Positions 10,127-59,546 of a stretch of 64,000 nucleotides of DNA are shown here, one piece after another; the stretch's first letter is position 1; every line of letters begins with the position of its first letter. The notes below the pieces were generated by a model. It was not told where the DNA came from, searched no databases, and saw nothing but the letters and a program-made list of their open reading frames with translations. Position numbers and translations under genes: made by a program. The DNA is taken from NCBI GenBank assembly GCA_009746045.1, contig RPFO01000299.1, forward strand, positions 370,001 through 434,000. The letters are read 5' to 3'. This DNA comes from Mesostigma viride (lineage: Eukaryota > Streptophyta > Mesostigmatophyceae > Mesostigmatales > Mesostigmataceae).

Positions 10127-11002
10127 TCTAGACTGACAAATTCAAAGATGAAAAGCTGATGTCGTTATATTCTGATACCGTCGCTAGGCTTAACATTGAA
10201 GACGGAGTTGAAACGAGTGCCAAATAATCACGAGAGGCAACGGGAAGCACACCGAAGTCACCCCTCCCAATGACATCCACGGAGAATGCAATTGCCACGA
10301 GCCTTACAATGGCTGCAACGGCCTGAGCTCTACTCCATTATCAGTCTGCAGTTGGACTTGACACAAAATATCGCTCCTGCGATGCAACACAGTCATGTAG
10401 CTCTCGGAACATGAATACCTCTGCGTTCACCGACGGGCGTAGGTATGCAATCTCCCGCCAAGAAACGGACAAAATGGTACTGTATGGACATTTTGCTTTG
10501 TTCTCTCGAAAATGCCGGCCGGAATGTCACGAAAGGTCACGAATTACGGTGATTTGCCACTTGAAGGCATTGGCGGGAAACCGGTCTACCATTGTAGACT
10601 CATAGATCACATCAGATTTTTTTTTTTAATAGCGCAAATGCGCAATCGACAGATCTCCTCAAGAGGATTCTGGATCACACCTTAGATACCAAAAAGTCCG
10701 TTTCAGTTGAGCGATACTTGGCCTACAAGAAAATGGCTGTGGGCTGGCCCCTTAGCGTGAAATGGGCCCAAGTCAAGACAGAGCAAGTTCGAGGTTAGGG
10801 GGTCAATTCTCAAGTCCAAGTAGCGCAATCGACAGATCTCGATGAGAGTACTCAGAATCTGACCTTTGCATGCCTGAAATTGTCAATATTTGGACGGCAG
10901 CGGTAAAAAACCGATCCTCCCGACGCAAAAATAATTAATTCGCCAAAATGTGCTTTCGTTCTACGATAAGTAGACCGGGCTACCGCCAATGCCTTCACTT
11001 AA
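10127..11002. other. Region upstream of the mannosyltransferase gene
   Basis: No gene seen. It should contain the promoter of the minus-strand PMT gene. A phrase GCGCAATCGACAGATCTC occurs twice (about 10634 and 10825) in otherwise different sequence, suggesting a small duplicated motif. Confidence 0.4.
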
Positions 11003-16161: not shown

Positions 16162-19100
16162 CTACTCCCATAAAGGATTACCAGGCGTTGCAAGCCACCC
16201 GCCGGACGCGGGCGTCCCACCAGCAGGCCCAGCTGTGTTGCCCCAGCCAACTGGCCCCTGACCCCCTGGGGCCCGGGCTCCAGAGGACCAGGCGGGTGGC
16301 ACATTGGCAACACCACCCCCACCCCCCGCCATCCAGCTGGGGGCTTGCCCCTGAGGCGGCTGTGGTGCCTGTTGGGCCCAAGCCCCCTGTTGCGCGCCCC
16401 AGCCAGCGCCCATACGACCAGGGGCAGGGGCAGGGGCAGGGCCAGCGTTCCACCCTGCAGGGGCCACGCCACCGCCAGTGGGCGGCCCACCATTGCCAGC
16501 CCCAAAGTCTGACCGACCGTAAAACTGTGGCCCAGCACCTGCGCCCATCCCTGGCCCCATCCCTGGCCGGGCACCCGCATGGCCCCCAGGCATGCCGCCA
16601 TAGCCAGCCATGGACGGATTTCCCGCGTGGGGGCCTCCGTAGGGCAGTATGTCCCTTGGGCCCATGTCGCCCCCTCTGCCTGCCCCCCCCACCGGTGCGT
16701 TGCTGATGGCGTGGTCCGTGAGGGGGGGGGCCATCTGCACCGGTGCGCTCGCCATGCCGTCCACTCGCGGCTCCTGCCAACTGCCACCAGACATCGGCGT
16801 GCCCCCAGCCGCCATCCCTGCACCCGCATTGGCCCCCGGCATTCCTGGGCCAGGTCCCGCCATCACACCCGAAGCCTCTTGCTCCAGCAGGCTGACAAGT
16901 GGCACCGCATCACGCTCCGTCACGTTTTGCTGCCACACCAGCAGCTCGGTGCCTTGGAAGAACCCCTTCAGCTGCCACCCCCTCAGCTTGAACAGAGGAA
17001 ACGGCCCCTGCACCACCCCTTTAGGGTCACGGTACATCCACCCCACCTCGTTGCCCCCCTGCATTGGCCCCCCTGCATTGGACCCTGGTCCCGGCAACGC
17101 TGTGGCCGCTTGCGGCTGCGTTGGCAGCATCTCCCCTTGCATGGGACGGCTGCGAAGCGGCAACGCACCCGGCATGCCGCCAGGGCCAGCACCCTCATTT
17201 GCTGCAGACCAGCCCCCCCGGTGGCCTTCATTAGTACCCGCGCCGGATGCCCAGACGGGCCCACCACCCGCGGCACCATTTGCACCGTCCCGCTCCTCCC
17301 CGCCCCAACCAGAGCCTTCCTCCATGGGTCCCCCCTTGTTCGAGCCCCACACGGGCGCATCGCCGCGGCCATCACCCCCCCTCGGCCCCTTATCCCACCC
17401 ATTCTCCCGGCGACGGCGAGAGGGCTCTTCCGCCTCCTCCCATTCGCGCGGGCGCCGCCCCCCCCTGCGCCCCCTGTCGCGGTCGTCGTCCCCCTTCCAG
17501 CCCTTGGCAACATCCATGCCGTCTGCATGTGTTCACGTTTATATAGATGAGGGGGGGGGGGGGGGGGCAAATACCATCAAGGAGAAGCGGGCAGTATTAG
17601 CGAAAGGCTTCGCAGAGACAGAGCGTTCGGACGCAGCTGCAGCAAAGACGATGACACTTGCAGCCTCCCTGATCGGGGTTTAAGATTATGAGTGACAGAA
17701 TGCAGCATACAGACATCCTTAAACTAAACCATCATGAGAGAAGAACTTGCTAGCCCTAGATGAACGGCAACTAGAGGGCGCATACACTTGAATCCCGCCT
17801 GCTTGCAAACGCACAGAAAACATGTGCCAGCACCAACGCATGCCAGCACCAACACATGCCAGCACCAACGCATGCCAGCACCAACACATGCCAGCATCAA
17901 CGCATGCCAGCACCAACACATGCCAGCATCAACGCATGCCAGCATCAACGCATGCCAGCACCAACACATGCCAGCACCAACACATGCCAGCATCAACACA
18001 TGCCAGCATCAACGCATGCCAGCACCAACACATGCCAGCACCAACACATGCCAGCATCAACACATGCCAGCATCAACACATGCCAGCACCAACACATGCC
18101 AGCACAACGACGCACCGCGATCCCTCCAGGAACCAGGCCCCGTGCGCCTGGGTGGCCCACCGCCGCGCCCGCGTCCTTGATCCTGGTCGCTGTCCCGCCC
18201 CCGCCCCCAGTCCCCCCCCCTGCCCCGATCCCTCTCCCTTTCCCGCCCCCGCTCCTCCTCCCTGTCCTTGCTCCGTTCGCGTTCCCGGTCACGCCCCCCC
18301 CCCCTTCGTACCCGCGCCGCCGCCGGTCCCCCCTCTCCCGTCCCCCCTCCCGCCCCCCCTCCCGCCCCCCCTCTCTCTCTCTCTCCTCTCCCCTCCCCTC
18401 CCGGCCCCACCCACGGGACCTTCCCTCGCGTCCCCCCGCCCCCCCCTCTTTTGCCCCTCCCCGGTCGTCCCTGGCCAACTCAGGTCCTCTTCTGTCCGCC
18501 GCACCGCCCCTGTCGCCATTGACGCCCCCCTCCTTGGCCGCGGTGCTCCCCTTCCCCTTGCCATTCGCCCCCACCCCCCTGTCATCCTGCCTCCCCCCTG
18601 CCCCCGGGTCCTCATCGTCGTCCTCCTCGCCGTCGCTCTGATCAACCACAATAGGCGTCATGACCAGCGCCTTGGCCTTGTCCTTGTCGTCCAGGTCCCG
18701 CAGCTGGTTCACGCACTCCTTGAGCTGCTTCAAGTCGCCGTTGAGGTTCGCCCGGTTGCGCAGGTTGGACAGCTTGGCGCGCAGCGCCTCCACGCGCTGG
18801 CGCACGCAATATGCGGCCCACCAGAGGGCAACCGAGGGCGATGGAGGGCACGAGGGCAAGAGGGGTAAAAGAAGCGTCAGAAGACATGAGGGGACCAACA
18901 GACGCCACGAGCAGGCGAGAAAGTATGGAGCGGGGGCAGAAGCACCAAGAAGGGAGCGATTGGTGGAAACGGGGTGCTAACCACAGCAACAAATGCGCAA
19001 TTCTGTGGTGGTGTGAATGAAGAAGTAAGAATAGCAGTGACCAAAATAACAGAAAAAACAATCCTACAGAGAGTATCAAGGATTCCATGAGAGAGCATAT

Positions 19101-21568: not shown

Positions 21569-24500
21569 AGAGGTGACTCGCATTGTCAGGTGGGGAAGTT
21601 GTTTCGACCCCTCGACCCTTGACCCCACTTGCCACGGGGCATGTTTCCCAGCACCCCATGCACACTAGCCCTGGCTGTAACGGACATAATTCTTCAGGGG
21701 CAGTGCTGCCAACCCACAATTGCATGCCTGATGTGTGTCCAGGCCACCGTAACAGCCACCCTAAGGTAATCGGCCTCTTTGAGTCCTCACCACCAACCTA
21801 AAGCCGCCCATGGAAAAGCCCATAGGGCATTTGACCGCATTCGCCTGCCCACCCCACCATGATGTCCGCTCTAGTTGAATGGGCAGCACCCTTATTGGAC
21901 CTCTCACCATGATGGATAGCCAGCACCCTCGTTGAACCACTCACCTCGTTGAAGTCAGAGTTGGACAGCTCGTTGACGTGGTAGTCCTCAATCTTGCCCA
22001 GGTTGTTAAGCTGCAGCACCTTGCGAGTGAAGTAGCCGGCAACGAACTCGTACTCATTAGGCCTTTCGGTCACAGCTGCAATATAATAGTGCCGACCAGG
22101 ACCCAGGCAGACGGCACCAGCACAAACACAGATACACGTAAAAGACAAAGTTAGGTCCAAAAAGAAAGAAAGAAAGCAGTCGCTTAAACAAATGGAAAGC
22201 ATTTGCAAACCACGGACTCTACACATGTATTGAACCTGAGCAACCCAAGACAACCAGACTAAACATGTACCCCGCAATGCACGCAGCTGCAAACATGACC
22301 CCAACCATGCACTTGATAGTGACTAGCCTGGCATCAGGCACCTGATACAGTGACCAGACTGGCATCAGGCACTTGACACAGTGACCAGCCTGGCATCAGG
22401 CACTCGTACAGTGACCAGCCTGGCATCAGGCACTTGATACAGTGACCAGCCTGGCATCAGGCACTTGATACAATTACCAGCCTGGCATCAGGCACTTGAT
22501 GCAGTGACCAGACTGGCATCAGGCACTTGATACAGGTGACCAGCATGGCATCAGGTACTTGATACAATTACCAGCCTGGCATCAGGCACTTGATGCAGCG
22601 ACCAGACTGGCATCAGGCACTTGATACAGGTGACCAGCATGGCATCAGGCACTTGATACAATTACCAGCCTGGCATCAGGCACTTGATGCAGTGACCAGC
22701 CTGGCATCAGGCACTTGATGCAGTGACCAGACTGGCATCAGGCACTTGATGCAGTGACCAGACTGGCATCAGGCACTTGATGCAGTGACCAGACTGGCAT
22801 CAGGCACTTGATACAGGTGACCAGCCTGGCATAAGGCACTTGATGCAGTGACCAGACTGGCATCAGGCACTTGATACAGGTGACCAGCATGGCATCAGGT
22901 ACTTGATACAATTACCAGCCTGGCATCAGGCACTTGATGCAGTGACCAGCCTGGCATCAGGCACTTGATGCAGTGACCAGACTGGCATCAGGCACTTGAT
23001 ACAGGTGACCAGCATGGCATCAGGTACTTGATACAATTACCAGCCTGGCATCAGGCACTTGATGCAGTGACCAGCCTGGCATCAGGCACTTGATACAATT
23101 ACCAGCCTGGCATCAGGCACTTGATGCAGTGACCAGACTGGCATCAGGCACTTGATACAGGTGACCAGCATGGCATCAGGTACTTGATACAATTACCAGC
23201 CTGGCATCAGGCACTTGATGCAATGACCAGCCTGGCATCAGGCACTTGATGCAGTGACCAGCCTGGCATACCGACACCCGCAATGCTGCCCACCTGCCCC
23301 CCCCCCAAGAAACACACCCCGGTGACACTGCGACCAGCCAGCACTCTCACCCACATGTCCACACAGACCCTAGCACGAACACTCAGACCAGCATGCACAC
23401 CCTCCTGTCCCCGTGACCAGCCAACATGCCACCCCATCCACCCCTCCCTGTGACCAGCACACCTCGCCACCCACCCACCTGTCCCCGTGACCAGCCAACC
23501 CCTCCCCCACCCCTACCTGTCCCCGTGACCACCCACACCTCGCCACCCATCCACCTGTCCCCGTGCAAGCACCCCTCCCCACACACCCAACTGTCCTTGT
23601 GACCAGCGCATGCGCCCACCTGTCACCGTGACGAGCCGGTAGATGGGCTCGCCGTCCGTCTTCAGGCGGATGCGGACGATGGCGTCCACCAGCGCGGCCT
23701 CCGGCACCGTGGACTTGCCCATGAAGATGCCCTCCACGTTGAAGCGCTTGAGGAAGATGAGGGCCAAATTGGCGCGACAGATGGCGGCGTACTGAGGCTG
23801 CGGGGGGGACGGCGGGGGTGCGATCAGGGAGCCGCAGGGTGAAGATCTTGGACGGACAAGGGGATGAGGGCACGGACATGCACCATGCACGAATGGACAT
23901 ATGCGTGGGATGGGAGGGATGGACCAAGTAGGATTCGAGCATGGGCGATCAAAGGGGGTGTGGGTTGCCAGTCACAGGATCCTCCACAAGATGTTCGTTA
24001 CGCCGACAGCATCTATCGGATCGCAAGAGAGACGCAAGCAGAACGTATCAAAACATATCCCGGCAGAGGAACGAGGGAGAAGCAAGCAGAACAAATCATG
24101 CCTATTGATAGAGGGAGAAGCTCGCACAGACTGTCACGGCATTACAACGAGAACGTGGCCCAAGGCACTTGACAGCGAGGGGCGCCAAAAACCCAACAGA
24201 CCATGTTCCTTGTCCCCACGCGCTACTGTTAAACGCTTACTTGGCAGTGCGAGCAGAGCAAGCGCTGCACCTCCCCTCTTGAATTGCAGCCATAGCCACA
24301 TGGCCCGACAACATACCAGTACAGACTTTAATGTCATACCTCACACCAAACAGCATTTTAAAAAAATAAAAAAATTATAACATGACTCCGTTGGGAGATC
24401 ATGTAGCACGTATTCAATTGCTGGGTGGGGGTGAAGGGAGCCACGAAAACTAACTAAGCTAACTCTAAGCTAGTCTACCGAAATCCTAGCTACTCTACTC

Positions 24501-27500
24501 AGCAAAGCGCCCCTTCCTTCTGGGGGGGGGGGGGGGGTTGCCCGCAGGGGCTGGCGTGTGGGCCTGGACAATGGTCTGCCATCTCTTTTGTCCTGCATTG
24601 GCAGTCCAAGCTAGAGAGAGAGGCAAACAGGATATGGCTGGTGGTAAATACCACCCTACCGCGCACACAACAACACCCTTTCAATCGTGACAAGCCCCAT
24701 CTATTTCGCCTCCACCTGGCTGGACCATCAACCCCAACTCCAACCCCATCAACGCTCATGCCAAATCCCTCATGCCCGCTTACCCCTGAAGGCACAACCG
24801 GCGCCAGGTCCCCGCTGTCCCGCCGGGCCACTCCCTTGGGCCCCCCCTTGAGCCCATGGGGGATCAAGTCCCCCTCACGAACCCCCTTGTCCTTAAAATG
24901 GCCGCCGTGCGCTTTGTGGAAATGGCCCCCATGCCCACCATGCTGCCCGGCCCCCCCTCCCTGGGGCTTGCGCAGCCCCGCCTGGCTGCCCTTGGCCAGG
25001 TGCACCCCCAGGTACTTTTGCATCTCCATCTGGCCGACCACCTTCTTCTGGAACACGGCACGCAGCAGATCGTCGCACACGATGCGGTTCTTGTGGCGCG
25101 GGTGCTGCGGAATGTGGTGGGTGCGGGCAGCAGCAGCAATCACCCAAGAAGGAAGGAAGAGTGGGGGCGATTCGGGAGTGGGGGTGGGGGAGTCGGACAA
25201 CTATAAAGACGGGGCCATATCAACCGTCGTGCAGCATGACCATCGCAAGCATAGCAGTGGCACAAGATTAGCTTGCACTGTCGGACTTGCTTCTATCACC
25301 CAGCAAACAACAGCCGGGAAGCAGGCAGTGAGCCGCCTTGCCAGGTCGCCATGCAGGCATGTCGTGCACGAGCAGGAGCACTTGCACAAACCACTGGGTT
25401 GCCAGGAGTAGCGCGTCATGCAAGCCACGATGAGCCACAAGCCAAGGAGGCCTTGGGGGCCGAATGAATGGAGACAAAGGGTATGATCAAACATGGGCGG
25501 GTGTCACATGCACAAGAACGCCGATGCCCAGGTTGTGCCACCATTGCCTGCACCATAACCCCACCCCACCCCAACAAATCGCCGCTGCCCTCAACCCTCT
25601 TGCAAGGGCAGCTTCCCTTTCCCCCTCCTGCAATACCCTTCCGCGACTGCCCAGCGCCGCTGCCCTCTGCCATGCCAGCACCGCACCAGCAGGTTGTTCT
25701 TTGCCAGCGGCTCACCTGTAGGTTGTTCTTTCGGATGTAGTTCCACAACGGCTTCTGCATCACAAACCGGTGCATGGGCGCGCTGACGTCCGCGCCGCCC
25801 GCCTCCAGGACCGCCTTGAGTGCCGGCGACGCCCACCCGTCAAATGGCGCCACCTGTGGCAACCATCCCACCTCATCGGCCTCCTCCTTATCAATCACTG
25901 CCGATGACCGCTCGCGCTTCCGCCCACCCCCCCCGCCTTCCCTGCCCCCCTCCTCCTCCTCCTCCTCGCCCTCATCCTGCAGTCCGGCCAGATCGTCTGC
26001 CTCCGACGCCATCTCATCGTCGTCAATCCCGGCCACTGCTTCATCCTCCCCATCACTGCCCTCCCCTTCCTCCTCCTCCCCGAGCACCTCACGAACTTTC
26101 TTAAGGCGGCCTGCCCGTCCCCCCTTGGGCGACTTGGCCGGTGACTTCTTCTTGGTTGCTTTGCTGGCCCTGCCTGCCGCCGCCAACAAGGCGACGTCCG
26201 GCTTCCCCGTCATGTGTTTGAACGGATAGGACAGGCCCATGTCCGCTTTCATCTCGTCCCAGTAGAGCTTGAACAGCCCCTCCCAGGTGGTCTCGTCGGT
26301 CAGGTCCGCCTCGCAGGCATCCAGCCCTTCTAACATCCGTACCATCACGACACAGTCTGCGCACAGGCCAGACTTCGGGTTGTCCGGCTGCAGGTCAAAG
26401 GGATGGGCGTCCATGCACTCCTTGCAGAGCGCGGCCGGGCAGGTCAGGCAGCGCACAACCACCGTGTGGTGCTCGTCACTGCAGCCCATGCAAAAATGCC
26501 AGCCTGCAGGGGGGGGGGGGGCAAGGGGCGGGGGGTTGAAGACAAACAGGGGGGGGGGGGTGAACTTGCTGGCTTTACCCCACAGGACAAACCTGGTGAT
26601 TTGCTTGGTTGGTTGGCTGGCTTGGTACTCGTCAGTGGTTGCGTCCATGGGAGGGGTGACAGGCACAGCAAGTGGGTCGGTGGCTTGGTGGGTGGGTTGG
26701 TGGATGGGTAAGGGGACGTGATGGGCACCACAGGCGGGGACAACGCAGAGGTGGGGAAGAGGCAAGAGAGGGGGCAGAAGGGAGAGGGGGCAGAGAGGAG
26801 AGGCGGCAGAAGGGAGAGGAGAGGAGAGGAGAGGGGGGAGGTTGAAGGGAGAGGGGGAAAAAGGTGGCAGAGGGAGACGTGCGGGGCAGGGCAAGCTAGG
26901 GGTGGCAGTTAGAAGTTTGGCGGTGTTGATTGGGTGGCGGTTTTGGTTGGTTGGTGGTGCGATGGTGGTGGTGGTGGCAGTGTTGGTTGGGTGGTGGTTT
27001 TGGTTGCGTGGTGCTGGGAGGACGGTGGGCGGGGTCGTTGCAGTGGGAGGGCTGGGGAGATGGGATGCGTGATGGCCATGGGGTGCATGGTGGGAAGGTG
27101 AGGGGGGCAATCGGTGGAAGAAGCAGCTGATGACAACCAGGGGGGCAGCGAGGGCGACTCACCACAGGACCATCGCCCCTTTTCGTTCAGGAAGGAGTCG
27201 TCCCGACCGATGCACGAAAGGTGGTAGGACTTGGGGCACAACCTGCAACGATCGGATGGGATGAGAGCACGCAGGAAAAAGCACCAGCAAAGGCCGGCAT
27301 GGTCCATCAGGCAGGACGTGACTAGAGCCCACCTGAAACCTTACCAAAGTGCCTACCCTTTGAAAAAGAGGTTAGTGACAGAAAAACGGCATTCATGTCG
27401 TCAAATCGCAACCAGCAAGAAACGTGACCGCACGCTGTGCCAAAAACGTTTTCTAACACATCGCAGCGTATGAGTACGGACAACCAAACAGGTGAACGAC

Positions 27501-29535: not shown

Positions 29536-32500
29536 ATGGCCTGCGAACTGGACGAATTGTGCCGGGACGTGGCGTCCTTTGAGGCTGAGTCGGAATCATG
29601 GGCACGCGAGTGCGGGGCCCGTCTGCAGGCTCAGGGTTCTAAACTTAAGGAAGCATGGATGCACTTGCAAACGATGACGCGCATGGTACATGCCAGCTTC
29701 CCAGGACAACTGTCTTTTATGATGCATTTCACGTTTTCTTAGTAAGACCTTTGTTTGCCTGAGTTGTTGAAGCGAGATACTGCGTTCTGATGTTCGGTTC
29801 GAGGAAGGCCGACAAACTTCCTTTTGCCGATCGGGCGAAGGGGAAGAGAGAACGCCTTGAAATTATCTCCCGCATCGTCTACAGTGGCATCCGCCTCGTG
29901 TTATCAAATTTCCAAGCTCGTGCTTTGGCCGGCAACCTGTTCCTACAGTAATCAGGTGGCACATTGTGCCGCGTGCTGGCGGTGCCTCTGTGTGTGTATG
30001 TGTGTGTGTGCGCGCCTGCACGGTTTTTTCTTGCAGCTGGAGGCCCGCTGGAAAGCGCTGGACGTGGAGCGTGGCGAATGCCAGCTGGAGGCCGCCGCAG
30101 CCTCGGCGGCGCTTGACGTGCGCCAGCAGAAAGTGGCGTCCCGCGAGCATGCTGTGGCTGAGAAAGAAGCCACAGCGGCAGCGCAAGAGGCGGCGCTGGC
30201 AGAACGACAGGCCACGATATGGGAGCGGGAGGCTTCCATGATGGAGCGGGAGGCCGAGGTGGCGGCACGAGAGGCCGAGGGCCACCAGGCGGTGGCAATG
30301 CTGGCGTCCGAAGTGGAGCACTCGGCGCGCTTCTGTCGGGCGCTGGCGCAGCAACAGGAGGAACTGAACCAGGTGGGGTGTGCCGCTGTTCAAGTTCGGT
30401 GGCGTGTGCTGCTGCTGGTGGCAACAGGTGGTGTGTGCTGCTGTTTAAGTGAAGTGGCGTGTGCGGGGGTTGAAGCAAGTGGGGTGGCAAACCGGGAACT
30501 TAACAGCCGTGCATCGCCAAAAGTGTGTAACCGTGTATAGCCGTGGCTGTGGGGTGGATAGTAAACACATGAACATGGAAGCGGTCTGAAATGTGGTGTG
30601 CTCGATGCGGTAGGGCCATCTTCCCTTGTGCCCAAGAGATGCCCCGCAGAGGTGTCACCGTTGGCCATGGGCTGACGACACGGTGGATGGGTGTGCCAGC
30701 AGAAACCCTCTGAGGTATCATTTGGGACCCTTCTGCGCGCCAGCGCACACGCACACACACACACGCACACACGCACGCACGCACACACGCACGCACGCAC
30801 ACACACGCACACGCACACGCACACGCACACGCACACGCACACGCACACGCACACGCACACGCACACGCACACGCACACGCACACGCACACGCACACGCAC
30901 ACGCACACGCACACGCACACGCACACGCACACGCACACACACAATCACACACACACACACGAACACTAACACTATAACACCAGCACTATCACCAACACAT
31001 GGCGTGTGCTTGCGTCCGCAGCGTCGCGCCTCACTGGCGCTCCGAGAGACGGCGCTGCGATCGGCGATGGCCGAGCACGAGCGCTTGTGTTGCGAGAGGG
31101 AGGCGACGCTGCAGCAGGCCCAGGCAGCGGGGGAGGTGAGTGCTGCGTGACTGTACTTGTGAGGGCGATACAGGTTTGGCTTGCTGCATGAATACTCGTG
31201 CGAGGGATGCAGGTTTTCTAACTGCAGGCCGAGTGATAGCACAGCTCGCTCGTTGCATATCTGGTGTACAGCGCCGAAGATGCGAGCGCAGAAGGTGTCG
31301 CAGGTGGAACGACCGTGCGTCAGTACGGTTTTAGGGTACCCCTAGTCTGCTGACTCAGTAGACTATGCCCCTAGTCTGCTGACTCAGGAGATGGGAATGA
31401 TCCGACTATCATCGATCGCATTCGCAAGTAATCAATCCCTGCCGGGCTTGTGTTCAATGACCATTCTTCTGAATTTCTTTGGTTATTTGATATCTGCTAT
31501 TTGTTATTGCTACAAATAGCACGCCTGTCAGATATGATTGTTATTGCTACAAATAGCACGCCTGTCATCACCAGACCGCAATAGTCATGACATCAAATCC
31601 GCTGCCATGTACATATCATGATTATCAAGGCTTATGTCCCTACGTACGTCCCTGCTAGAGCCACCATGTAGTCTCCACTTGACTATAATGAAACCATACG
31701 ATACAAATTACATAGGGTATACAAATACCTCTCCATGCGTCTCTTGTGGGTGCCCTGTCCTGCGATCCTGAGATCCTGCGATGCGCGTGCGGCTGCCACA
31801 GCATCATGATCAAGACGCTGCCCCATTTTGTGCCACGTTCCCATGTGCTTGATTCTCATCTTACGCGTCTCATTTTGGTGTGGATCCTGTCACGCCACCC
31901 ATGGGCACGGCTTCACGGTGGGGGGGCGCAGCAAGCGTTGGCGCGCCAGCACACCGCTCTACAACTGGCGGCTGCCACCGAGCGCTCCCACCTGGAACAG
32001 CTGGCGCACGAGATGGCCGTCTGGGAGCGCCGCGCCGACGAACGGGCACGGCTGGCAGAAGAAAAATGCGCCCAAGCGGAGCACAAGTTTGCCCAGGCTG
32101 CGGAAAAATGCGCTGAGCTGGCAGTGCTGGAGGCGCAGCTGCAGGCGACAGCCGGCGCAGTGACAGAGGCGGAACGCCAGGTGGCAGAGCTACAGACGAA
32201 GCTGATGGTGGGGCAGGGAGATCTGGAGGCGAGAGAAGAAGGGTTGAGGAGGAGGGAGGAGCATGTGGAGGCGGAAGAGGAGGCATTGATGGCAGAGGGG
32301 GCTGCTCTGCAGCAGCGGGAGGAGGGTGTGCGCGAACGGGAGGAGCAGATGGGGGAGAGTGAGAGGAGAGAGCGGGCGAAGGAGGCGGAGGTGCGAGCTA
32401 GAGAGGCGAAAGTAGAAGAGAGGGAAACACGAGTGCAGGAGAGGGAGGCGAACATAGAAGAAAGGGAAACACAAGTTTGCAAGCAGGAGGAGGAGGTGGC

Positions 32501-35500
32501 AGGGCAAGCGCGCCACTTGGGGGCAAAGGAAGGAGAGCTGCTGTCGCGTGGGCAAGAGGTGGAGCGCCGAGCGGTCAGTATAAGGGAGGAGGAAGGGGCG
32601 GTGGGGCGCAGGGCGGCCGAGGTAGACAGGAGGGAGGAGGAGGTGGATCGCAGGGCCAGGGAGTTGGAGGGGATGGCTAGGGACCTTGCGGCGCGCCAGT
32701 GTGATGTGGATGCCCAGGTGCAAGGGTTGAGGGAGCGGGAGGAGAGAGTCAGGGGGAGGGAGGCAGAGACGAGCGCTCGTGTGTCGGCGTTGGATTCCCG
32801 GGAAGCAGCGGCGGCGGGCAAGGAAGCTGAGGTCAGCAAGAAGCTCGCTGAGATCAGAGAAACTTACCGCACTTCTGTTGTCAGTGAGATTGGTCAGTTG
32901 TCCCAAAGACAGGCCGATGCGGCGTGCCGTACGACAGAGGCAGCAGTTGACCGCTCCAGCCTCCATCAGCATATGATGGCTCCGCAAGAAGCACGGGCAG
33001 ATGGTGTGGGCAAGGCAGAGAGTAACGGTGCGGAGGCGGAGGACGGCATGTGGGCGCCGGCATCCGGCACGGACCCTGTGTCCGAGTTGGAACAGCTGGA
33101 TTTGGTGCTGCAGAGGAAGATCGCCGAAGTTGGTGGGCTGTTGCGGGTGGCTGGGTTGAGCCTTTCGCTGCCAGTGCTAGGGGAAGAGAGGTCAGCGCCC
33201 ATGGCCACGCGGGGCAACGCGCCCGTGCGGGGGCCGGCAACGGAGGGAGGAGAGAACAGCGTCTCGTTGGATGCCCATGGGCGGGAAGGGGTGCGGGATG
33301 CGGCAGCAAGGGATGCAGCGGATGGAGCCTTAGGAGGTGAGGGAAGCGGCGCGGTGGTACTCATCAACGAATGCAGGGCCGACAGCCAGCAGCCAGGCAA
33401 GGCATCATGGGATCGTGACTATGCGAGGATGGGGCCATGGGAGTGTGGGTGTGTGGGTGTGTGGGTGTGTGGGAGTTGTGGGAGTGTGGGAGTGTGGGAG
33501 GTGGGAGTGTGGGAGTTGTGGGAGTGTGGGAGTGTGGGAATTGTGGGAGTGTGGGAGTTGTGGGAGAGTGGGAGTGTGGGAGCATGGGAGAATGTGAGAC
33601 TGGGGAATATGGGGATAAGTACATTTGAGTATGTGTTCCTTCATGGCCGTGGTATTCACCCTCTGCCTTATGGGTCAGGGGTCACAGTGGCATCCTGTTG
33701 AGTTGTTGGAGTGCCTCAGAGGCTTTGACATATGTGCCACGTGGGTAGTAGCCGTAGATATTAACCTGCACTCGTGCCCCGGGCCCAGCAGCCATGTAGA
33801 TTATTTCATGTGCAGTTGTCGTCCTCATTGTCAGTTGCTTTGTGGGACTGTGCTATATTTCCCCGTGGCTTGGGACATTCTCATGACTCATACTTTCATC
33901 AATGTCCGTCAGTCCGTGGCACGAGGCTGCTGTCCATTTGGCAACACACATACTTATCTGAAAGGAAATGGCCGAAACCTAAAAGGGCTACGTAATGGTA
34001 CTTGAGGCGGGCGGGGAGGTTGAAGGGGGGGCATGGCGGCAAATGCAGATTCTGGTAAGGGCATTTGGATTCTGGCACGCCGAGAATACCTTCCCTCGGG
34101 CCCGTTGTATTTGTGAGTTCAAAGATCATGGCGTGCAACTGCTGTCGCACGTAACGTTTGGGATGGTAGCGCTGACATGCAGTGGTTGTAACTGCAACCC
34201 TATTTTCTGCACTTACAAAAAGAATATGTAATACTGCATCCATGTGCTGTTGTGTTGCTGTTGTTTAATGCTCTTGACTACATGCCTGGTTAACTACGGT
34301 TGGCTGTAACCCCTTCCCCTTCATGTTTGTTTCTGCTAGGCGCCCATGGGTTGCCAACATCCTGTACGACAAGACCACGTTGACTCCGCGCTCCTTTGAA
34401 TTTCATACCAGGCTTTAAATAACGCATGTCTACGGTCCTTGTTCGTGCGGACGGACCACGCTGTCCGCACTGTCGCACACCACGTGCACGCAGGGGACCA
34501 AGCCACGCCACCACTCTCACAAGATTTTGGCAACCCGCCGCCAACACCCTGGGTGCGCTACGGTCATTGCGTGCGCCAGCTGCGCCAGCTGTCCCTTCAA
34601 CACACAGCCGCCGTGAGGTGGCTGTCGGCCGAATGGACCCGGATGGCAGCGGTTCAAGGATGCGGGCAGGAAGAGGCAGACATGGCTGGACAAGCCCAGT
34701 CATCCCTGGTATGAATGAGGGCATCACTTCCTGTGTGCATTTGCATGCTAGGATAAAAAACTCTTCTGCCGATCCGATGGCACCATCGATAAGCATGCCA
34801 AGCATGGTACCGCAAGAGAAACTACAGGAGTTTTGCGGTCGCTCCCTACTATTGCTATGGTTGATATTGTTGCCACTTTCGTAACAGGATCATCTTGAGG
34901 CCAGAGCGGTGCGGCTTCCCTACTTGTTCCCTGCTTGTTCGCTACTCTTCGGTACTTGTTCCCTGCTTGTTCGCGACGTGTTCGCTATTTGCGCGCTACT
35001 TGTTCGCTACTTGTATGCTTCTTGTATTGCCCACACGACCCACGCCACTAGCTGGATTTGGTTCATGTCAAACCTATACCGTAGGTCGCCGCCGTAGGAA
35101 ACCAGGGGGGGGGGGGGAGGGAAAGGGACCTGGAAATGAAGGGGGCATTTTCGTAGTTATGAGCAGCCGGGAACTTGGATCTGGTTGGATTCTCACAGGG
35201 AAATCCACACAGTTATACCACAAACTACCAACTCAACTACAAATCGCCACACTGTTGTGCTCGCATGTGTCGCAGCGCGCCGAGGTCTATCGGGCGCACG
35301 ACACAATCACCCAAACGCCAGCAACACTAAGCACAAGCGTAGCTGGCCGTGTCATCCCCTCCGATCCATCAGACGAGGGGGGGGCGGAAACGTTGGAAGC
35401 CCCAGATGGGCCCTTTCCCGCTCCACGCATTGCTGGTAAAGCAGATGCCAGCAGTTGTAGCAATGATGACCACGTCACCAGTGGGGGGGTCACAGAGCTG

Positions 35501-38500
35501 CGCCCGGCAGGCCGCCCACTGTACGTCCCATCCACCCTGGGTGTAGGTGCAGATGCCAGCAAAAGCGGAGCCGCTGAGTGTGAGGCGCAGCCAGCAGGCA
35601 GGGCTATTCATGGGCAAGCCAGGGACACTAAGGTCATGGACTCGCGTCATCATCGCGGCGTGTGTGACACGGTCCTGGCATCCCCACCCTGTGGCAGTCA
35701 AGGGGTCGAACTCCACCCGTTCCTTAGTTCTTGCGCCAGTCCGTCGCCGTCCCTCGCACGCTTGGCAGCGGGTATCGACCGTACCCTTCTCCACACGGCC
35801 AGCGTGCTGGCTGGATGCGTGGACGAGCTTGACGTGTCACGGTGGCAAGATCTAGAGAACAACTCTAGAAACATCGCCGCCACCTGCAATGGCCACGTGA
35901 CTGGGAGGGGGACGCCAGCAGTACATCGACACCGGGATGGCTGGCATCTGCCCAAGAAGCAAGAGGCAGGCCAGGCCGTGCACCTGGCCGGGTTTGGCCC
36001 CACGATCATGCAAGGAGACACAGCCAGGGGGGGGCCCACGGGCACTACTGCCAATGCTCAGCCTCCAGCGGAGCACGGCCATGCCGGCGGCAGTGCTTGT
36101 GATGGCGGCCCCGGTGCTGGTGATGGCGGTGCCGGTGCTGGTGATGATCCCAGCCATGCGCTGTCCTTGCAGGCATGCCTGTGGCAGCAGCTGCACACGC
36201 AAAAGGAGTACCTGGCCAAAGTGGCTGAGGAGCTGGAGGCCCGCGAGTGCTACCTGGAGAAGAGGTGGGTAAACCTGAGGTAGCGCTACCTGGAGAAGAG
36301 GTGGGTAAACCTGAGGTAGCGCTACCGGGAGAAGAGGTGGGTAAACCTGAGGTAGCGCTACCTGGAGAAGAGGTGGGTAAACCTGAGGTAGCGCTACCTG
36401 GAGAAGAGGTGGGCAAACCTGAGGTAGCGCTACCGGGAGAAGAGGTGGGCAAACCTGAGGTAGCGCTACCGGGAGAAGAGGTGGGTAAACCTGAGGTAGC
36501 GCTACCTGGAGAAGAGGTGGGTAAACCTGAGGTAGCGCTACCGGGAGAAGAGGTGGGTAAACCTGAGGTAGCGCTACCTGGAGAAGAGGTGGGTAAACCT
36601 GAGGTAGCGCTACCTGGAGAAGAGGTGGGCAAACCTGAGGTAGCGCTACCGGGAGAAGAGGTGGGCGAACCTGAGGTAGCGCTACCGGGAGAAGAGGTGG
36701 GTAAACCTGAGGTAGCGCTACCGGGAGAAGAGGTGGGCAAACCTGAGGTAGCGCTACCGGGAGAAGAGGTGGGTAAACCTGAGGTAGCGCTACCGGGAGA
36801 AGAGGTGGGCAAACCTGAGGTAGCGCTACCGGGAGAAGAGGTGGGCAAACCTGAGGTAGCGCTACCGGGAGAAGAGGTGGGCAAACCTGAGGTAGCGCTA
36901 CCGGGAGAAGAGGTGGGTAAACCTGAGGTAGCGCTACCTGGAGAAGAGGTGGGTAAACCTGAGGTAGCGCTACCGGGAGAAGAGGTAGGCATGCCTGAGG
37001 TAGCGCTACCTGGAGAAGAGGTGGGTAAACCTGAGGTAGCGCTACCGGGAGAAGAGGTGGGTAAACCTGAGGTAGCGCTACCGGGAGAAGAGGTGGGTAA
37101 ACCTGAGGTAGCGCTACCGGGAGAAGAGGTGGGTAAACCTGAGGTAGCGCTACCGGGAGAAGAGGTGGGTAAACCTGAGGTAGCGCTACCGGGAGAAGAG
37201 GTGGGTAAACCTGAGGTAGCGCTACCGGGAGAAGGGGTGGGTAAACCTGAGGTAGGGCTACTGGGAGAAGAGGTGGGCAAACCTGAGGTAGCGCTACCGG
37301 GAGAAGAGGTGGGTAAAAATGAGGTAGCGCTACCGGGAGAAGGGGTGGGTACACCTGAGGTAGCGCTACCTGGAGAAGAGGTGGGCAAACCTGAGGTAGC
37401 GCTACCTGGAGAAGAGGTGGGTAAACCTGAGGTAGCGCTACCTGGAGAAGAGGTGGGTAAACCTGAGGTAGCGCTACCGGGAGAAGGGGTGGGTAAACCT
37501 GAGGTAGCGCTACCGGGAGAAGAGGTGGGTAAACCTGAGGTAGCGCTACCGGGAGAAGAGGTGGGTAAACCTGAGGTAGCGCTACCGGGAGAAGAGGTGG
37601 GTAAACCTGAGGTAGCGCTACCGGGAGAAGAGGTGGGCAAACCTGAGGTAGCGCTACCGGGAGAAGAGGTGGGTAAACCTGAGGTAGCGCTACCGGGAGA
37701 AGAGGTGGGTAAACCTGAGGTAGCGCTACCGGGAGAAGAGGTGGGTAAACCTGAGGTAGCGCACCGGGAGAAGAGGTGGGTAAAAATGAGGTAGCGCACC
37801 GGGAGAAGAGGTAGGCATGCCTGAGGTAGCGCTACCTGGAGAAGAGGTGGGTAAACCTGAGGTAGCGCTACCGGGAGAAGGGGTGGGTAAACCTGAGGTA
37901 GCGCTACCGGGACAAGAGGTGGGCAAACCTGAGGTAGCGCTACCGGGAGAAGAGGTGGGTAAACCTGAGGTAGTGCTACCTGGAGAAGAGGTGGGTAAAC
38001 CTGAGGTAGCGCACCGGGAGAAGAGGTGGGCAAACCTGAGGTAGTGCTACCTGGAGAAGAGGTGGGTAAAAATGAGGTAGCGCACCGGGAGAAGAGGTAG
38101 GCATGCCTGAGGTAGCGCTACCTGGAGAAGAGGTGGGTAAACCTGAGGTAGCGCTACCTGGAGAAGAGGTGGGTAAAAATGAGGTAGCGCACCGGGAGAA
38201 GAGGTAGGCATGCCTGAGGTAGCGCTACCTGGAGAAGAGGTGGGTAAACCTGAGGTAGCGCTACCGGGAGAAGAGGTGGGTAAACCTGAGGTAGCGCTAC
38301 CTGGAGAAGAGGTGGGTAAACCTGAGGTAGCGCTACCGGGAGAAGAGGTGGGTAAACCTGAGGTAGCGCTACCGGGAGAAGAGGTGGGTAAACCTGAGGT
38401 AGCGCTACCGGGAGAAGAGGTGGGCATGCCTGAGGTAGCGCTACCTGGAGAAGAGGTGGGTAAAAATGAGGTAGCGCACCGGGAGAAGAGGTAGGCATGC

Positions 38501-41040
38501 CTGAGGTAGCGCTACCTGGAGAAGAGGTGGGTAAACCTGAGGTAGCGCTACCGGGAGAAGGGGTGGGTAAACCTGAGGTAGCGCTACCGGGAGAAGAGGT
38601 GGGTAAACCTGAGGTAGCGCTACCGGGAGAAGAGGTGGGTAAACCTGAGGTAGCGCTACCGGGAGAAGGGGTGGGTAAACCTGAGGTAGCGCTACCGGGA
38701 GAAGAGGTGGGTAAACCTGAGGTAGCGCTACCGGGAGAAGAGGTGGGCATGCCTGAGGTAGCGCTACCGGGAGAAGAGGGGGGTAAACCTGAGGTAGCGC
38801 TACCGGGAGAAGAGGGGGGTAAACCTGAGGTAGCGCTACCGGGAGAAGAGGTGGGCATGCCTGAGGTAGCGCTACCGGGAGAAGAGGTGGGTAAAAATGA
38901 GGTAGCGCTACCGGGAGAAGGGGTGGGTAAACCTGAGGTAGCGCTACCTGGAGAAGAGGTGGGCAAACCTGAGGTAGCGCTACCTGGAGAAGAGGTGGGT
39001 AAACCTGAGGTAGCGCTACCTGGAGAAGAGGTGGGTAAACCTGAGGTAGCGCTACCGGGAGAAGGGGTGGGTAAACCTGAGGTAGGGCTACTGGGAGAAG
39101 AGGTGGGCAAACCTGAGGTAGCGCTACCGGGAGAAGAGGTGGGTAAAAATGAGGTAGCGCTACCGGGAGAAGGGGTGGGTAAACCTGAGGTAGCGCTACC
39201 TGGAGAAGAGGTGGGCAAACCTGAGGTAGCGCTACCTGGAGAAGAGGTGGGTAAACCTGAGGTAGCGCTACCTGGAGAAGAGGTGGGTAAACCTGAGGTA
39301 GCGCTACCGGGAGAAGGGGTGGGTAAACCTGAGGTAGCGCTACCGGGAGAAGAGGTGGGTAAACCTGAGGTAGCGCTACCGGGAGAAGAGGTGGGTAATC
39401 CTGAGGTAGCGCTACCGGGAGAAGAGGTGGGTAAACCTGAGGTAGCGCTACCGGGAAAAGAGGTGGGCATGCCTGAGGTAGCGCTACCTGGAGAAGAGGT
39501 GGGTAAACCTGAGGTAGCGCTACCGGGAGAAGAGGTGGGTAAACCTGAGGTAGCGCTACCGGGAGAAGAGGTGGGTAAACCTGAGGTAGCGCTACCGGGA
39601 GAAGAGGTGGGTAAACCTGAGGTAGCGCTACCGGGAGAAGAGGTGGGCATGCCTGAGGTAGCGCTACCGGGAGAAGAGGTGGGCAAACCTGAGGTAACGC
39701 TACCGGGAGAAGAGGTGGGTAAACCTGAGGTAGCGCTACCGGGAGAAGAGGTGGGTAAACCTGAGGTAGCGCTACAGGGAGAAGAGGTGGGCATGCCTCA
39801 GGTAGCGCTACCGGGAGAAGAGGTGGGTAAAAATGAGGTAGCGCTACAGGGAGAAGAGGTGGGCAAACCTGAGGTAGCGCTACCGGGAGAAGAGGTGGGC
39901 AAACCTGAGGTAGCGCTACCGGGAGAAGGGGTGGGTAAACCTGAGGTAGCGCTACCGGGAGAAGGGGTGGGCAAACCTGAGGTAGCGCTACCGGGAGAAG
40001 AGTGGGCAAACCTGAGGTAGCGCTACCGGGAGAAGAGATGGGTAAATATGTGTGAGAAGCGTAGAGCTGTGTGGAAAAGGGGTGCATGGGTAAACATGTG
40101 TGTGGGAGAGATGTACGAGAGAATGGGGGGCAAACTTGTGAGCCCATGCTCTGATCTGTGGAGGTTGTGCCTGTTTAAATTTACCAGATGTGTCTTATAT
40201 GCAGCACGTCAGAAGAAGGCTATACGTGTCAGGATTGTGGTAACGGCATGCACTAAGGTACCGGCAGGAACTATCTCTATTGAGCTGAGACCAGCCACAA
40301 TTATGTGACTTGCATGCATGTTTATGCACACCACTGAGCCTGCATTGGTAGGATGGACGAGCTGAGACACTCGTGCATCTGCAGATGTCATGGCCCTTTA
40401 ATGCACATATCATGATTCCGATCATTATTAGTTTATCTATCGTTGTCAGCATACAATAGATGTACCCCGTTATAGTATGCTGCCTCAAGTTTTCGTTGTG
40501 TAGTATAATCAGTGGGTGCTTTGATGCTTACATGTTTTATTATTCATGCATGGCTGGTTAGCTATATGGTTAACGCCATGAGTTTTTTTTGGTTGCATGT
40601 TGGTGCTGTTTGATTCTAACGTTTTTATTCTAGCGTTAATACATATATATTTTTATGAATCTTGTGCCTGTATTGTAAATGATACGTCGCGGTCGTATAA
40701 CTGCGCTACAATATCTAGCCGAAACGTGTAAGCACAATCAGATGCAGTGGTGTATAGCTATGCCAGCCTGTGCTTTCTGTCTCGTTGTTATACATAGCTC
40801 GTTGTTGCATGTATAGTTAGCTGCCCAGGGTGGTTGAGAAACGTTAACTACTGCGATTGATCGAGGCCTAGCATGACAGTACTCACCCGCTGGTGTACAC
40901 ATGAATTATGCGCAAGCATATCCTATTCTAAGCTAAAACTAAACATCCATGTATAACCTTGATCGGTTGTACGCAGGGAACGCGCGCTGGACATCAAGCT
41001 CAGCCGGAAAAGGAGCCAAGCTGTGCAAAGCATTCCTTGA
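29536..41040 (+). CDS. Large coiled-coil protein, 8 exons
   Basis: Exons: 29536-29685, 30037-30372, 31022-31135, 31932-about 33356, 34412-34708, 34888-34908 (7-residue microexon), 35276-36264 and 40977-41040; about 1,131 residues. All joins keep phase. The donor of exon 4 is uncertain (33336, 33353 or 33356). Exons 2-4 code an almost continuous charged coiled coil rich in Ala, Arg and Glu (WEREASMMEREAEVAAREAE; VEERETRVQEREANIEERET), interrupted by few helix breakers. Exon 7 is low-complexity and ends QKEYLAKVAEELEARECYLE. Exon 8 restores a coiled-coil end ERALDIKLSRKRSQAVQSIP. I do not recognise the family. Structural proteins of cilia, centrosome or nuclear lamina look like this, but nothing decides among them. 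The last intron (36265-40976) is nearly all 36-bp minisatellite copied from the exon 7 donor. If that first donor is skipped, a stop follows at 36281-36283. Confidence 0.72.
30741..30962. repeat. (CACACG)n / (CA)n tract in intron 2 of the coiled-coil gene
   Basis: About 35 hexamers of ACGCAC with CA-rich ends, between exons 2 and 3. Strongly alternating purine-pyrimidine, hence prone to Z-DNA. Confidence 0.95.
33437..33605 (+). repeat. G-rich minisatellite (GTGTGGGAGTTGTGGGA)
   Basis: GGGTGTGT then GGGAGTGT and GGGAGTTGT words repeat through 170 bp of intron 4 of the coiled-coil gene. There are dozens of GGG runs on the coding strand with spacers of 4-6 bases, a G-quadruplex-type pattern. 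Confidence 0.85.
34915..35025 (+). repeat. Degenerate TACTTGTTCCCTGCTTGTTCGC repeat
   Basis: CTTGTTC/CTGCTTGTTCGCTA words recur about eight times between the microexon (34888-34908) and exon 7 of the coiled-coil gene. A short decayed minisatellite. Confidence 0.6.
36253..40045 (+). repeat. 36-bp minisatellite of duplicated 5' splice sites, about 105 copies
   Basis: Unit: CTACCGGGAGAAGAG, GTGGGTAAACCTGAG, GTAGCG. The first unit is the true end of exon 7 (CTACCTGGAGAAGAG) plus the start of its intron (GTGGGT), so the array is an amplified exon-intron junction. Each unit has the perfect 12-bp palindrome GGTAGCGCTACC and two GT donor-like sites. Variants include CTGG for CCGG, GGGC for GGGT, AAAAATGAG and GCATGCCTGAG, and some units lack CT (GCGCACCGGG), which shifts the frame. 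One plus frame reads LPGEEVGKPEVA repeats for over 500 residues. The other strand is also open. These frames are by-products. Confidence 0.95.
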
Positions 41041-41660
41041 TGAATGGCGCAACAATTCTGGCATGGTTATGAATGCAACGTACAGTCATCATGTAAGTGC
41101 AATGTGCACATTTGCCCTAGCTCAGCTAGCTAAGCTAGCCGTCGACCTAAAATCTAGCTGTCCATATTAGTTAATGAGAGCACTGTTCCTGGACGCATGT
41201 ACATGTAGTGGCTAGGGGTATAGGTACCACATGCATATATGCGTGGCAATTGGGATTCTATCGAATAATATTTGGTGATTGCAATATAATTTTGAGCACC
41301 AGCTACCTATAGCTCGCGGGGCCAGCGACATAAGCAACATGTGTCACACGAATTTGTCCATACATTTGACAGTACGTACGTCTGCAAGTTGCAACATGGC
41401 ATAGCTCCAACGTACGTGCTTACTAATTCACTACGTCCATATGGAGGGTAATTTTCTCGACATTTATGCACAATTCGTCCATGTATTCCCATGCACGTAC
41501 AAAGCACAAACATGCATATGGCTGGGAGAGTACGTACGATATCATAATATGCGGCCTGCAGTTGCTAGCTAGATGATTTTCTCAAGTGGTACACTAGAGC
41601 TAGTCTGGCCGCGCCAGTAATGTTCAAATGGCCGGGCACATATGTATGCACGAATCAAAT
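41041..41660. other. Non-coding stretch after the coiled-coil gene
   Basis: AT-rich, with scattered GTACGT and GCATGC words. It should contain the 3' UTR. I see no other gene. Confidence 0.4.
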
Positions 41661-41750: not shown

Positions 41751-42310
41751 GCCAGTACCGGGCCCTATGGCGCAAGCCCCTGGGCAAGATCGAGAAACAG
41801 GACCTGTTCAAGGTCCTCGTCCTTCCTGTTCTCACGTATGGCGCCGAGACGTGGACCCTCACCGCCGACCTGGCCCGCAAGCTGGACGGCGCGGTCACCA
41901 GCATGCTGCGTTCCATTTTCAGAGTAGGATATGCTGCTCATGTCCGCAATGAGGACCTGTACCAGGGCATGCCCTATATCACCAGCACAATTAAGCAACG
42001 CCGCCTGCAGCTAGTAGGGCACCTAGCTCGCACCAACCAGGTAGACACCTCACGTGGCCCCCCCGCAGGACTGCGACCAGCCCAGCCTGGCCGGCACCTC
42101 CTGACGTGGGCTGGGCCCAGTGATGTTAGACGCCGCAAGGCCCGCACCTTCAAAGAACAGCTAGTAGAGGACATGGGGGGCCTAGGCCTCTCCGTGATTT
42201 GGAAGAAGATGATGGACAAGGCCAAGTGGGCCCAGGTCATAGAGGACAACGAGCCCCCCCCAGTGGGGAAGCGCCCGCGTGTGCAATCCCGCGGGAGGCA
42301 CGCTAGATAG
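41750..42310 (+). pseudogene. LINE reverse transcriptase C-terminal fragment
   Basis: The frame to the stop at 42308 codes the RT thumb and C-terminal region ([50 protein letters not shown], end RGRHAR) with no catalytic YADD. It is 5'-truncated and cannot be functional. Its residues match copy 1 without visible change. Confidence 0.85.
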
Positions 42311-43749: not shown

Positions 43750-44275
43750 GAGGCATGTGAGCGCCGTCCGCTGCCTCGGCCAGAAGAGATCAGCTGTCCC
43801 AAAGCCTTACGGTGCTTGTGCAACATGCACTGCCGCACTTCACCAAGGCAATCCCGCTGGCGAAACATCTTGACATGCGTGCATGCATCCCTTGGCACCA
43901 CACAGCACCATGTGCAGCACCAAAACACGCTCTATTGTACAAATGGGAGCACGCCTCAGCATCCCATAGACCCTGCAGCACTGCACATGATCTTATTTCT
44001 GTGAGTGCACTCTAGAAGCTGTCTGGACCAGCTCTTTGTGTGAGCACCAAGCCGCCTTCTCCTCGAGTTGACACAACAGATGTCCACAGAATCGCAACGG
44101 TAGGGCATTTCTTGGCACGTCATGGTGAGCCCCAGAGCACAGCGATCTGCCGGTCATTGACATCAAGCCCCCTGCCAAGGTGCCAGAAAAACTATGTTTG
44201 AAATGGCCGGTCTCACCAATTGGCAGAGCTCACAGCAGCGCGCCCCATCCATCCACGGCCGGCTCACCTCCACCA
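43750..44275. other. No gene seen
   Basis: Moderately GC sequence downstream of the minus-strand Kelch gene, with no motif or repeat I can support. Confidence 0.35.
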
Positions 44276-44455
44276 GCTAGTCCTGTAAGAAGCATAAGAA
44301 CCTCCCCCCGCTAGTCCTGTAAGAAGTATAAGAACCTCCACCAGCTAGTCCTGTAAGAAGTATAAGAACCTCCACCAGCTAGTCCTGTAAGAAGTATAAG
44401 AAACTCCACCAGCTAGTCCTGTAATAAGTATAAGAACCTCCACCAGCTAGTACCA
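44276..44455. repeat. 34-bp tandem repeat just after the Kelch gene stop
   Basis: CTAGTCCTGTAAGAAGTATA plus AGAACCTCCACCAG, five copies at an exact 34-bp period. On the gene's strand it lies 10 bp after the stop codon, so it is in the 3' UTR. Confidence 0.93.

Positions 44456-50544: not shown

Positions 50545-59546
<9,002 letters not shown>

Follow-up and report, generated by a model that had tools for sequence, protein, structure and literature searches.

Tandem repeats that span exon-intron boundaries have been described in amphioxus under the name "mirages", and they are reported to leave normal splicing undisturbed (PMC3087553). Units of 10-72 bp occur there in Adh3 and show somatic length instability, and the loci that harbor mirages further include the globin genes BflGb6 and BflGb9 as well as TnC and PGBD5 (PMC3087553; PMC3902484). 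Here, we describe an array in the green alga Mesostigma viride that shares with the amphioxus mirages the placement of its units across an exon-intron boundary. It lies in a 64,000-nt stretch of genomic DNA (GenBank assembly GCA_009746045.1, contig RPFO01000299.1, positions 370,001 to 434,000 of the forward strand), hereafter the window, in a predicted coiled-coil gene, and consists of about 106 copies of a unit that combines the end of an exon with its 5' splice site (donor). The array is probably a boundary-seeded, mirage-type minisatellite, the passive expansion of which is hidden by use of the 5'-most donor, and not a switch. The amphioxus mirages differ from it in belonging to an animal and in size, with 3 and 6 units in the two BflGb6 haplotypes compared with ~106 in Mesostigma, and both 5' and 3' boundaries are duplicated in amphioxus, whereas duplication in the window was found at 4 of 15 donors and at 0 of 15 3' splice sites (acceptors).

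Parts of this layout recur in other systems. The human interferon-induced gene 6-16 (IFI6/G1P3) has several donors provided by a minisatellite located where an exon ends (Turri 1995, as cited in PMC4526556, and cited also in PMC2572611 and PMC3618361); downstream units are there reported as used donors, with three mRNAs, whereas the later donors in Mesostigma bring a predicted stop. Human UBC, like the Mesostigma gene, carries tandem units bearing AG^GT in or at an intron (the caret marks a splice boundary here and below), but its units are coding and act as both kinds of site (PMC10809524), whereas the length of the proposed Mesostigma intron does not divide evenly by the unit, and the acceptor proposed for it falls beyond the repeats. 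Tandem copies of splice sites are also a feature of the Rogers model of intron gain, invoked for 24-bp repeats in fission yeast and for potato RdRp, where a duplication of two copies crosses an intron-exon boundary (PMC4974935). In that model, the copies create a new intron with both splice sites taken from the duplicated segment, whereas the Mesostigma intron seems to have been lengthened with only donors copied, and its proposed acceptor at 40976 lies ~930 bp beyond the array, past decayed copies. Repeats at exon-intron boundaries in human segmental duplications may form new introns (PMC2812944), and a survey of direct repeats in the vicinity of splice sites has been published (PMC11782384). 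Among full-text, open-licence papers, we found no many-copy boundary-spanning minisatellite in plants or green algae. The Mesostigma array is of a known kind, which it extends to a green alga, and is remarkable for its ~106 copies, its host lineage, and its company in nearby genes.

The 36-bp minisatellite occupies 36249-40046 of the forward strand and comprises 105.7 copies with a 93% match according to Tandem Repeats Finder (TRF); 3.8 kb of repeats at that match are not given by chance. Coordinates without a prefix refer to the window, which corresponds to C1679:370001-434000 in contig numbering. There are 106 unit anchors, separated by 36 bp in 98 of 105 spacings and by 35 bp in the other 7, and the units fall into 28 distinct sequences. 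Each unit, GCTACC[G/T]GGAGAAGAG^GTGGGTAAACCTGAGGTAGC, joins 16 exon-end bases (36249-36264) to the first 20 bases past the proposed donor, the array starting 16 bases ahead of GAGAAGAG^GTGGGT, and it holds both sides of an exon-intron boundary provided that the boundary is real. An initial annotation of the window had reported an array of about 105 copies of the exon end, donor, and intron start, which stands, although it counted 15 exonic bases in place of 16. Its description of about 105 equivalent donors, each with a palindrome, slightly overstates the uniformity of the units: when the units are aligned with gaps, 103/106 retain GT together with G at +5 and 92/106 the palindrome GGTAGCGCTACC, while GAGGTGGG is kept in 85/106 and GAGGTGGGT in 60/106. 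GT is missing at the exact ungapped position in 4 of the 106 units, and AG^GT at the main site is present in 90, so that the units carry splice signals. The inverted 6-bp ends of the unit (GCTACC, GGTAGC) produce a palindrome at unit junctions. The parts of the gene around the array are as follows.

34865..36283, forward strand: open frame of 472 aa from stop to stop (open reading frame [ORF] list), its last part, as far as 36264, being the proposed coiled-coil exon that precedes the array
36265..36270, forward strand: first donor, GAG^GTGGGT, giving the proposed full-length tail (sequence, splice translation)
36281..36283, forward strand: TAG met in unit 1 when donor 1 is unused (sequence, splice translation)
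40974..40976, forward strand: proposed acceptor CAG, outside the array (sequence, heptad test)
40977..41040, forward strand: proposed last coding exon with stop TGA at 41038-41040 and tail KRERALDIKLSRKRSQAVQSIP (splice translation, GC content)

The initial annotation calls the exon before the array exon 7; our own reading gives four upstream coiled-coil exons in addition to the open frame 34865-36283, and a forward ORF of at least 470 aa was found in 0/500 mononucleotide shuffles of 33701-36264. When joined to 40977, with a proposed intron of 4712 bp, donor 1 leads into the coiled-coil tail, whereas 101 further donors all lead to KRWVNLR and the stop at 36281-36283. The earlier claim that only the first donor keeps the frame is therefore right given this acceptor, and the CAG on which it relied is present. 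Among 116 YAG sites between 40046 and 43500, the acceptor at 40976 is unique in offering E2 and [LIVM]5 and so continuing the heptad. The GC content of 40977-41042 is 0.56, a value matched by 2.0% of 66-bp windows across 40047-41650; in a 119-bp version of the test past the proposed acceptor, 7.7% of windows are as high. From the sequence, we consider the splice 36264^40977 likely to be real, if well short of certain.

Several points weigh against this splice. The heptad criterion was chosen after the candidate acceptor had been seen, and the property it describes occurs at 13/2043 plus-strand and 3/3261 minus-strand YAG sites of the window. By residue composition, the proposed acceptor ranks 14th of 370 overall and comes third when only the 72 YAG sites beyond the array are compared; the two best of the latter open a reverse-transcriptase-like frame, and the composition ranking is not decisive. 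No protein record of the coiled-coil gene was found at E 0.001 among candidates 0.55-1.75x the length of the query. It is possible that the proposed last exon is instead an internal exon in another frame. Both the splice and the use of the first donor are predicted from DNA sequence, and the copy number of the array comes from one assembly. A second frame (NARWTSSSAGKGAKLCKAFLDEW...) is open across 40977-41095 up to GTAAGT at 41096.

As we picture its origin, a 36-bp segment reaching from 16 bp before to 20 bp after the donor would have been duplicated in tandem and expanded to ~106 copies, probably through replication slippage or unequal exchange, the ordinary mechanism of such expansion. Since every copy sits 3' of the first donor, use of the 5'-most donor would make them all intronic and leave the protein unchanged, and the array is probably tolerated without acting as a switch. 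We infer the splice 36264^40977, the precedence of the first donor, and the mechanism of expansion, whereas the anatomy of the array, its non-coding pattern, its decayed 3' edge, the truncation by later donors given the proposed acceptor, the restriction of its matches to this locus, and its recurrence at other donors are observed in the sequence. Units 1-15 average 1.14 differences, later blocks of 15 units average 1.79-3.03, and decayed copies run ~90 bp beyond the 3' edge, whereas none are evident ahead of the 5' edge (87/300 shuffles reach the score). The most uniform copies thus adjoin the exon, with the oldest-looking ones deeper in the intron.

40052..40143, forward strand: decayed unit copies past the 3' edge of the array (local alignment score; 1/500 mononucleotide shuffles as good)

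The array does not appear to be one of a dispersed family. All 16 matches in the 439.9-Mb assembly (2243 contigs) lie at its own locus, and the idea of a family spread through the genome was rejected on that account; the search scores only the best candidates and skips very common words, so that uniqueness is not proven by it. A paralogue or second allele of the exon before the array was likewise rejected, as the sole genome match of that exon was the exon itself. Rfam gave 0 matches in the window at gathering scores, and Pfam gave just weak, below-cutoff matches for the coiled-coil and array frames.

The layout recurs nearby. In the 264 kb formed by the window and 200 kb of flanking contig, the clearest parallel is an array of 26 bp x 16 at C1679:336860-337278 on the reverse strand, 69 kb away, at the start of an importin-alpha intron. 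It begins inside the exon ...HGAVPIFVQLLMSPSDDVREQ (...SPSDDVREQ), the 44 residues of which can be aligned over their full length with importin subunit alpha-1a (4b8j chain A, 136-179), and each copy contains the last 6 exonic bases and the donor. The next exon (AVWALGNIAGDS) lies 1965 bp on and begins AVWALGNIAGDSPKCRDL after CCATGCAG. The intron starts with 16 matches of GAGC[AGT][GA]^GTG[GA]GT, the first being the exon end; only this first donor joins DDVREQ^AVWALGN, while the second leaves the frame and the other 14 lead to a stop after VGAMMRESG. That a conserved importin-alpha gene appears to tolerate 16 near-identical donors is the strongest argument for the first donor winning. An array of 32 bp x 84 at C1679:362694-365331 on the forward strand, the second longest minisatellite of the 264 kb, lies just past a coding exon end, ...MSVLLGE^GTGAGG, and the units inspected carry GGGGAG^GTGA; the gene beside it is less certain, its RINGv match being below cutoff. 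Both arrays were found by inspecting arrays and are illustrative, standing outside the rates that follow.

For those rates, 15 donors and 15 acceptors were drawn from three genes of the window, namely, a PHD/SWIB/Plus-3 gene, a kelch gene, and the coiled-coil gene; the array itself contributes one pair (C7). The boundary-copy test asked whether the last 18 exonic bases recur within the first 300 intronic bases. This uniform test was passed by 4/15 donors (A3, A5, C2, and C7), or by 3/14 when C7, the case that prompted the survey, is set aside, and by 0/15 acceptors, against intron and against exon alike. The exon-end recurrence at A3, A5, and C7 was reached in 0/200 shuffles each. For C2, the whole 26-bp boundary was matched in 2/200 shuffles and the exon part alone in 21/200. 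The cases other than C7 are the following, the last of them, A6, failing the uniform test and left out of the count.

25673..25731, reverse strand: A3, a 29 bp x 2 duplication that takes in the SWIB exon end with its donor, AAGAACAACCTACAG^GTGAGC (TRF; shuffles)
22309..23619, reverse strand: A5, Plus-3 exon end GGCTCGTCACGGTGACAG^GTGGGC with copies downstream (TRF; shuffles)
30355..30372, forward strand: C2, exon end of the coiled-coil gene, the donor region of which (GT at 30373) recurs downstream (shuffles)
21920..21953, reverse strand: A6, TTCAACGAG^GTGAGTGG duplicated once, 17 bp (2/200 shuffles), a borderline case

At A5, decayed ~38-bp copies (23400-23607) are followed by a 31-bp array (22309-23269) with a common GGCTGGTCAC core, and there are four more GTCAC..GACAG copies. 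The SWIB domain spans the A3 junction (E 2.3e-17) and the Plus-3 domain the A5 junction (E 3.5e-14), and these introns are therefore well supported. The gene that contains them runs from 28218 to 16165 on the reverse strand, has a glycine-rich last exon and at least 10 exons as drawn, and is presumably a plant NERD-like gene. Two other arrays lie in or near these genes on the reverse strand. One, 16 bp x 17.6 at 17825-18105, directly follows the donor GATCGCG^GTGCGT, with its start 10 bp into intron A9, and the other, 34 bp x 5.5 at 44266-44451, lies past the stop of the kelch gene. The unit of the latter looks like an acceptor followed by a 15-bp piece and then by a donor-like site (TTCTTACAG^GACTAGCTGGTGGAG^GT), and its last copy runs into GTGAGC.

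Whether donors are special in this respect depends on the controls. In a first round, intron-interior positions passed the test at 67/300 without C7 and 119/300 with it, the reverse direction at 53/300, and exon-interior positions at 13/300. A larger control gave 319/1500 for intron interior without C7 (346/1500 in the mirror direction) and 35/1500 for exon interior (44/1500 in the mirror direction). Donors are thus straddled about as often as intron positions, even though the tested segment is mostly exon, and acceptors are not. At the mirror rate, 0/15 acceptors has a probability of ~0.02, and the difference between donors and acceptors one of ~0.05, one-sided, both calculated by hand on small numbers. 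With an ungapped shift statistic, at least 16 matches were found at 3/15 donors and 0/15 acceptors, compared with 24% of intron-interior positions without C7 and 2.9% of those outside TRF arrays, and by these control rates the donors are not hot spots.

The edges of arrays tell a partly different story. Across the 264 kb, a codon-model test of 45 arrays placed coding flanks running in at 12, out at 5, and both at 5, a weak result. In an edge test of 58 arrays (116 edge-strand pairs), a donor motif with a coding flank stood at the 5' edge in 16 cases versus 6.3 expected, whereas CAG with a coding flank stood at the 3' edge in 7 versus 15.7 expected. With both edges tested, GGTNNG gave 16 in (5.7 expected) and 7 out (4.9 expected), or 10 (2.7 expected) and 2 (1.4 expected) at a stricter threshold; CAG gave 16 in (16.1 expected) and 7 out (15.7 expected), or 6 (6.6 expected) and 4 (6.1 expected) when stricter. 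A number of these edges belong to G-rich repeats within exons, and the codon model, for which genes from this very window had served as the training set, recovered just 9/12 known donors and 7/12 known acceptors. The counts suggest an asymmetry in favor of donor-like sites at array 5' edges, which is partly at odds with the straddling tests, in which donors merely equal intron interior. This counts against our reading of the array, as 16 versus 6.3 would be more easily explained by a donor hot spot than by neutral tolerance on its own. A count of boundary copies at predicted sites (donors 27/74, acceptors 27/172; stricter, 21/48 and 27/89) was dropped, as it was swamped by simple repeats.

The two sets of results would be reconciled if introns gather repeats freely, with the donor side left open, since the upstream donor continues to serve, and the acceptor side closed, since an upstream acceptor copy would be met first. 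The last of these steps draws on what is generally known of 3' splice-site choice. A bolder proposal, which we offer tentatively and hold to be doubtful at this point, is that minisatellites in Mesostigma favor 5' splice sites, but not 3' splice sites, as starting points, whether because duplication is commoner there or because a strict first-donor rule hides the copies from selection while acceptor copies are purged.

Against the mirage-type interpretation stand four other explanations of the array. The most serious of them, although unlikely, is that there is no intron, the coiled-coil frame ending at the TAG of unit 1 (...CYLEKRWVNLR) and the array being 3' untranslated region or intergenic DNA. 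In the unspliced frame, a leucine still falls on a heptad position and 36281-36283 is a natural end, and the splice is backed by no protein record in searches at E 0.001. The array nevertheless copies an exon end with its donor (GT, +5 G) in the manner of the homology-fixed introns A3, A5, and that of importin-alpha, and the acceptor at 40976 both continues the heptad and opens a GC-rich stretch. The initial annotation had offered two options, a passive expansion and a copy-number-dependent switch; in the latter, extra copies would divert splicing to later donors, so that a truncated protein takes the place of the full-length one. The later donors do share a truncated tail, from donor 3 on the stop would lie at least 53 nt before the junction and could trigger RNA decay, and the human 6-16/IFI6 minisatellite is reported to supply used donors (PMC4526556). 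A switch of this kind finds no support in our results, however, and we regard it as very improbable. Every later donor leads to an identical short tail at any copy number, the tail lost is just ~20 residues, and no feature separates the donors: predicted pairing and accessibility at 14 donors show no trend and do not set the first donor apart, even though the first units fold more stably than shuffles (z -3.60, one fold). With the same layout in importin-alpha and at 4/15 donors, a dedicated switch is unnecessary. Passive expansion is much the likelier of the two, since donors are straddled (4/15) about as often as random intron positions (319/1500).

It is slightly less probable still that the array works like that of human UBC, as a series of AG^GT sites with dual specificity, the copies serving as donors and acceptors and being removed piecemeal. 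AG^GT in 90/106 units and a unit length divisible by three would suit this, and dual-specific sites in tandem repeats are documented (PMC10809524), but the proposed 4712-bp intron is not a multiple of 36 (remainder 32), its acceptor is not part of the array, the unit AGs have no pyrimidine tract, and the coiled-coil frame is stopped in nearly every unit (97 stops). Least probable, to the point of being hardly credible, is translation of the array as a 12-residue repeat (PGEEVGKPEVAL). One sense frame with this repeat is open for 521 aa. Only 4/20 substitution types are silent, however, compared with 27% expected; seven 35-bp spacings shift the reading frame within the array; and two antisense frames are also poor in stops (4 and 12). 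A coding array was rejected on these three grounds, and the array looks non-coding.

The window has several other features. Trinucleotide arrays extend over 51677-57029, where ~4.9 kb of TGC gives way to runs of GCC and GCT, and 11147-12929 is a 1.8-kb, nearly perfect 5-bp GTTGA repeat. Reverse-transcriptase-like frames of LINE type are found at 41765-42310 (forward strand, the end) and 6119-7063 (reverse strand, the catalytic part), neither with a Pfam match at E 0.01; the latter contains YADD, which we take to be the reverse-transcriptase motif. A one-exon protein-O-mannosyltransferase frame at 8420-10141 on the reverse strand matches an entry of the Mesvir1 set at 100% identity across 98% of its length.

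The array amounts to a natural test of donor choice, in which about a hundred near-identical donors are presented and only the first leads to the proposed protein. If junctions prove to be nearly all at the first donor, donor sequence cannot explain the choice, and transcription order or exon definition must. Its recurrence in importin-alpha and nearby genes suggests a whole set of such cases, and if minisatellites do start preferentially at 5' splice sites in this alga, nature would have set up many competitions of this sort in the Mesostigma genome, with as many as a hundred near-identical donors lined up against one another.
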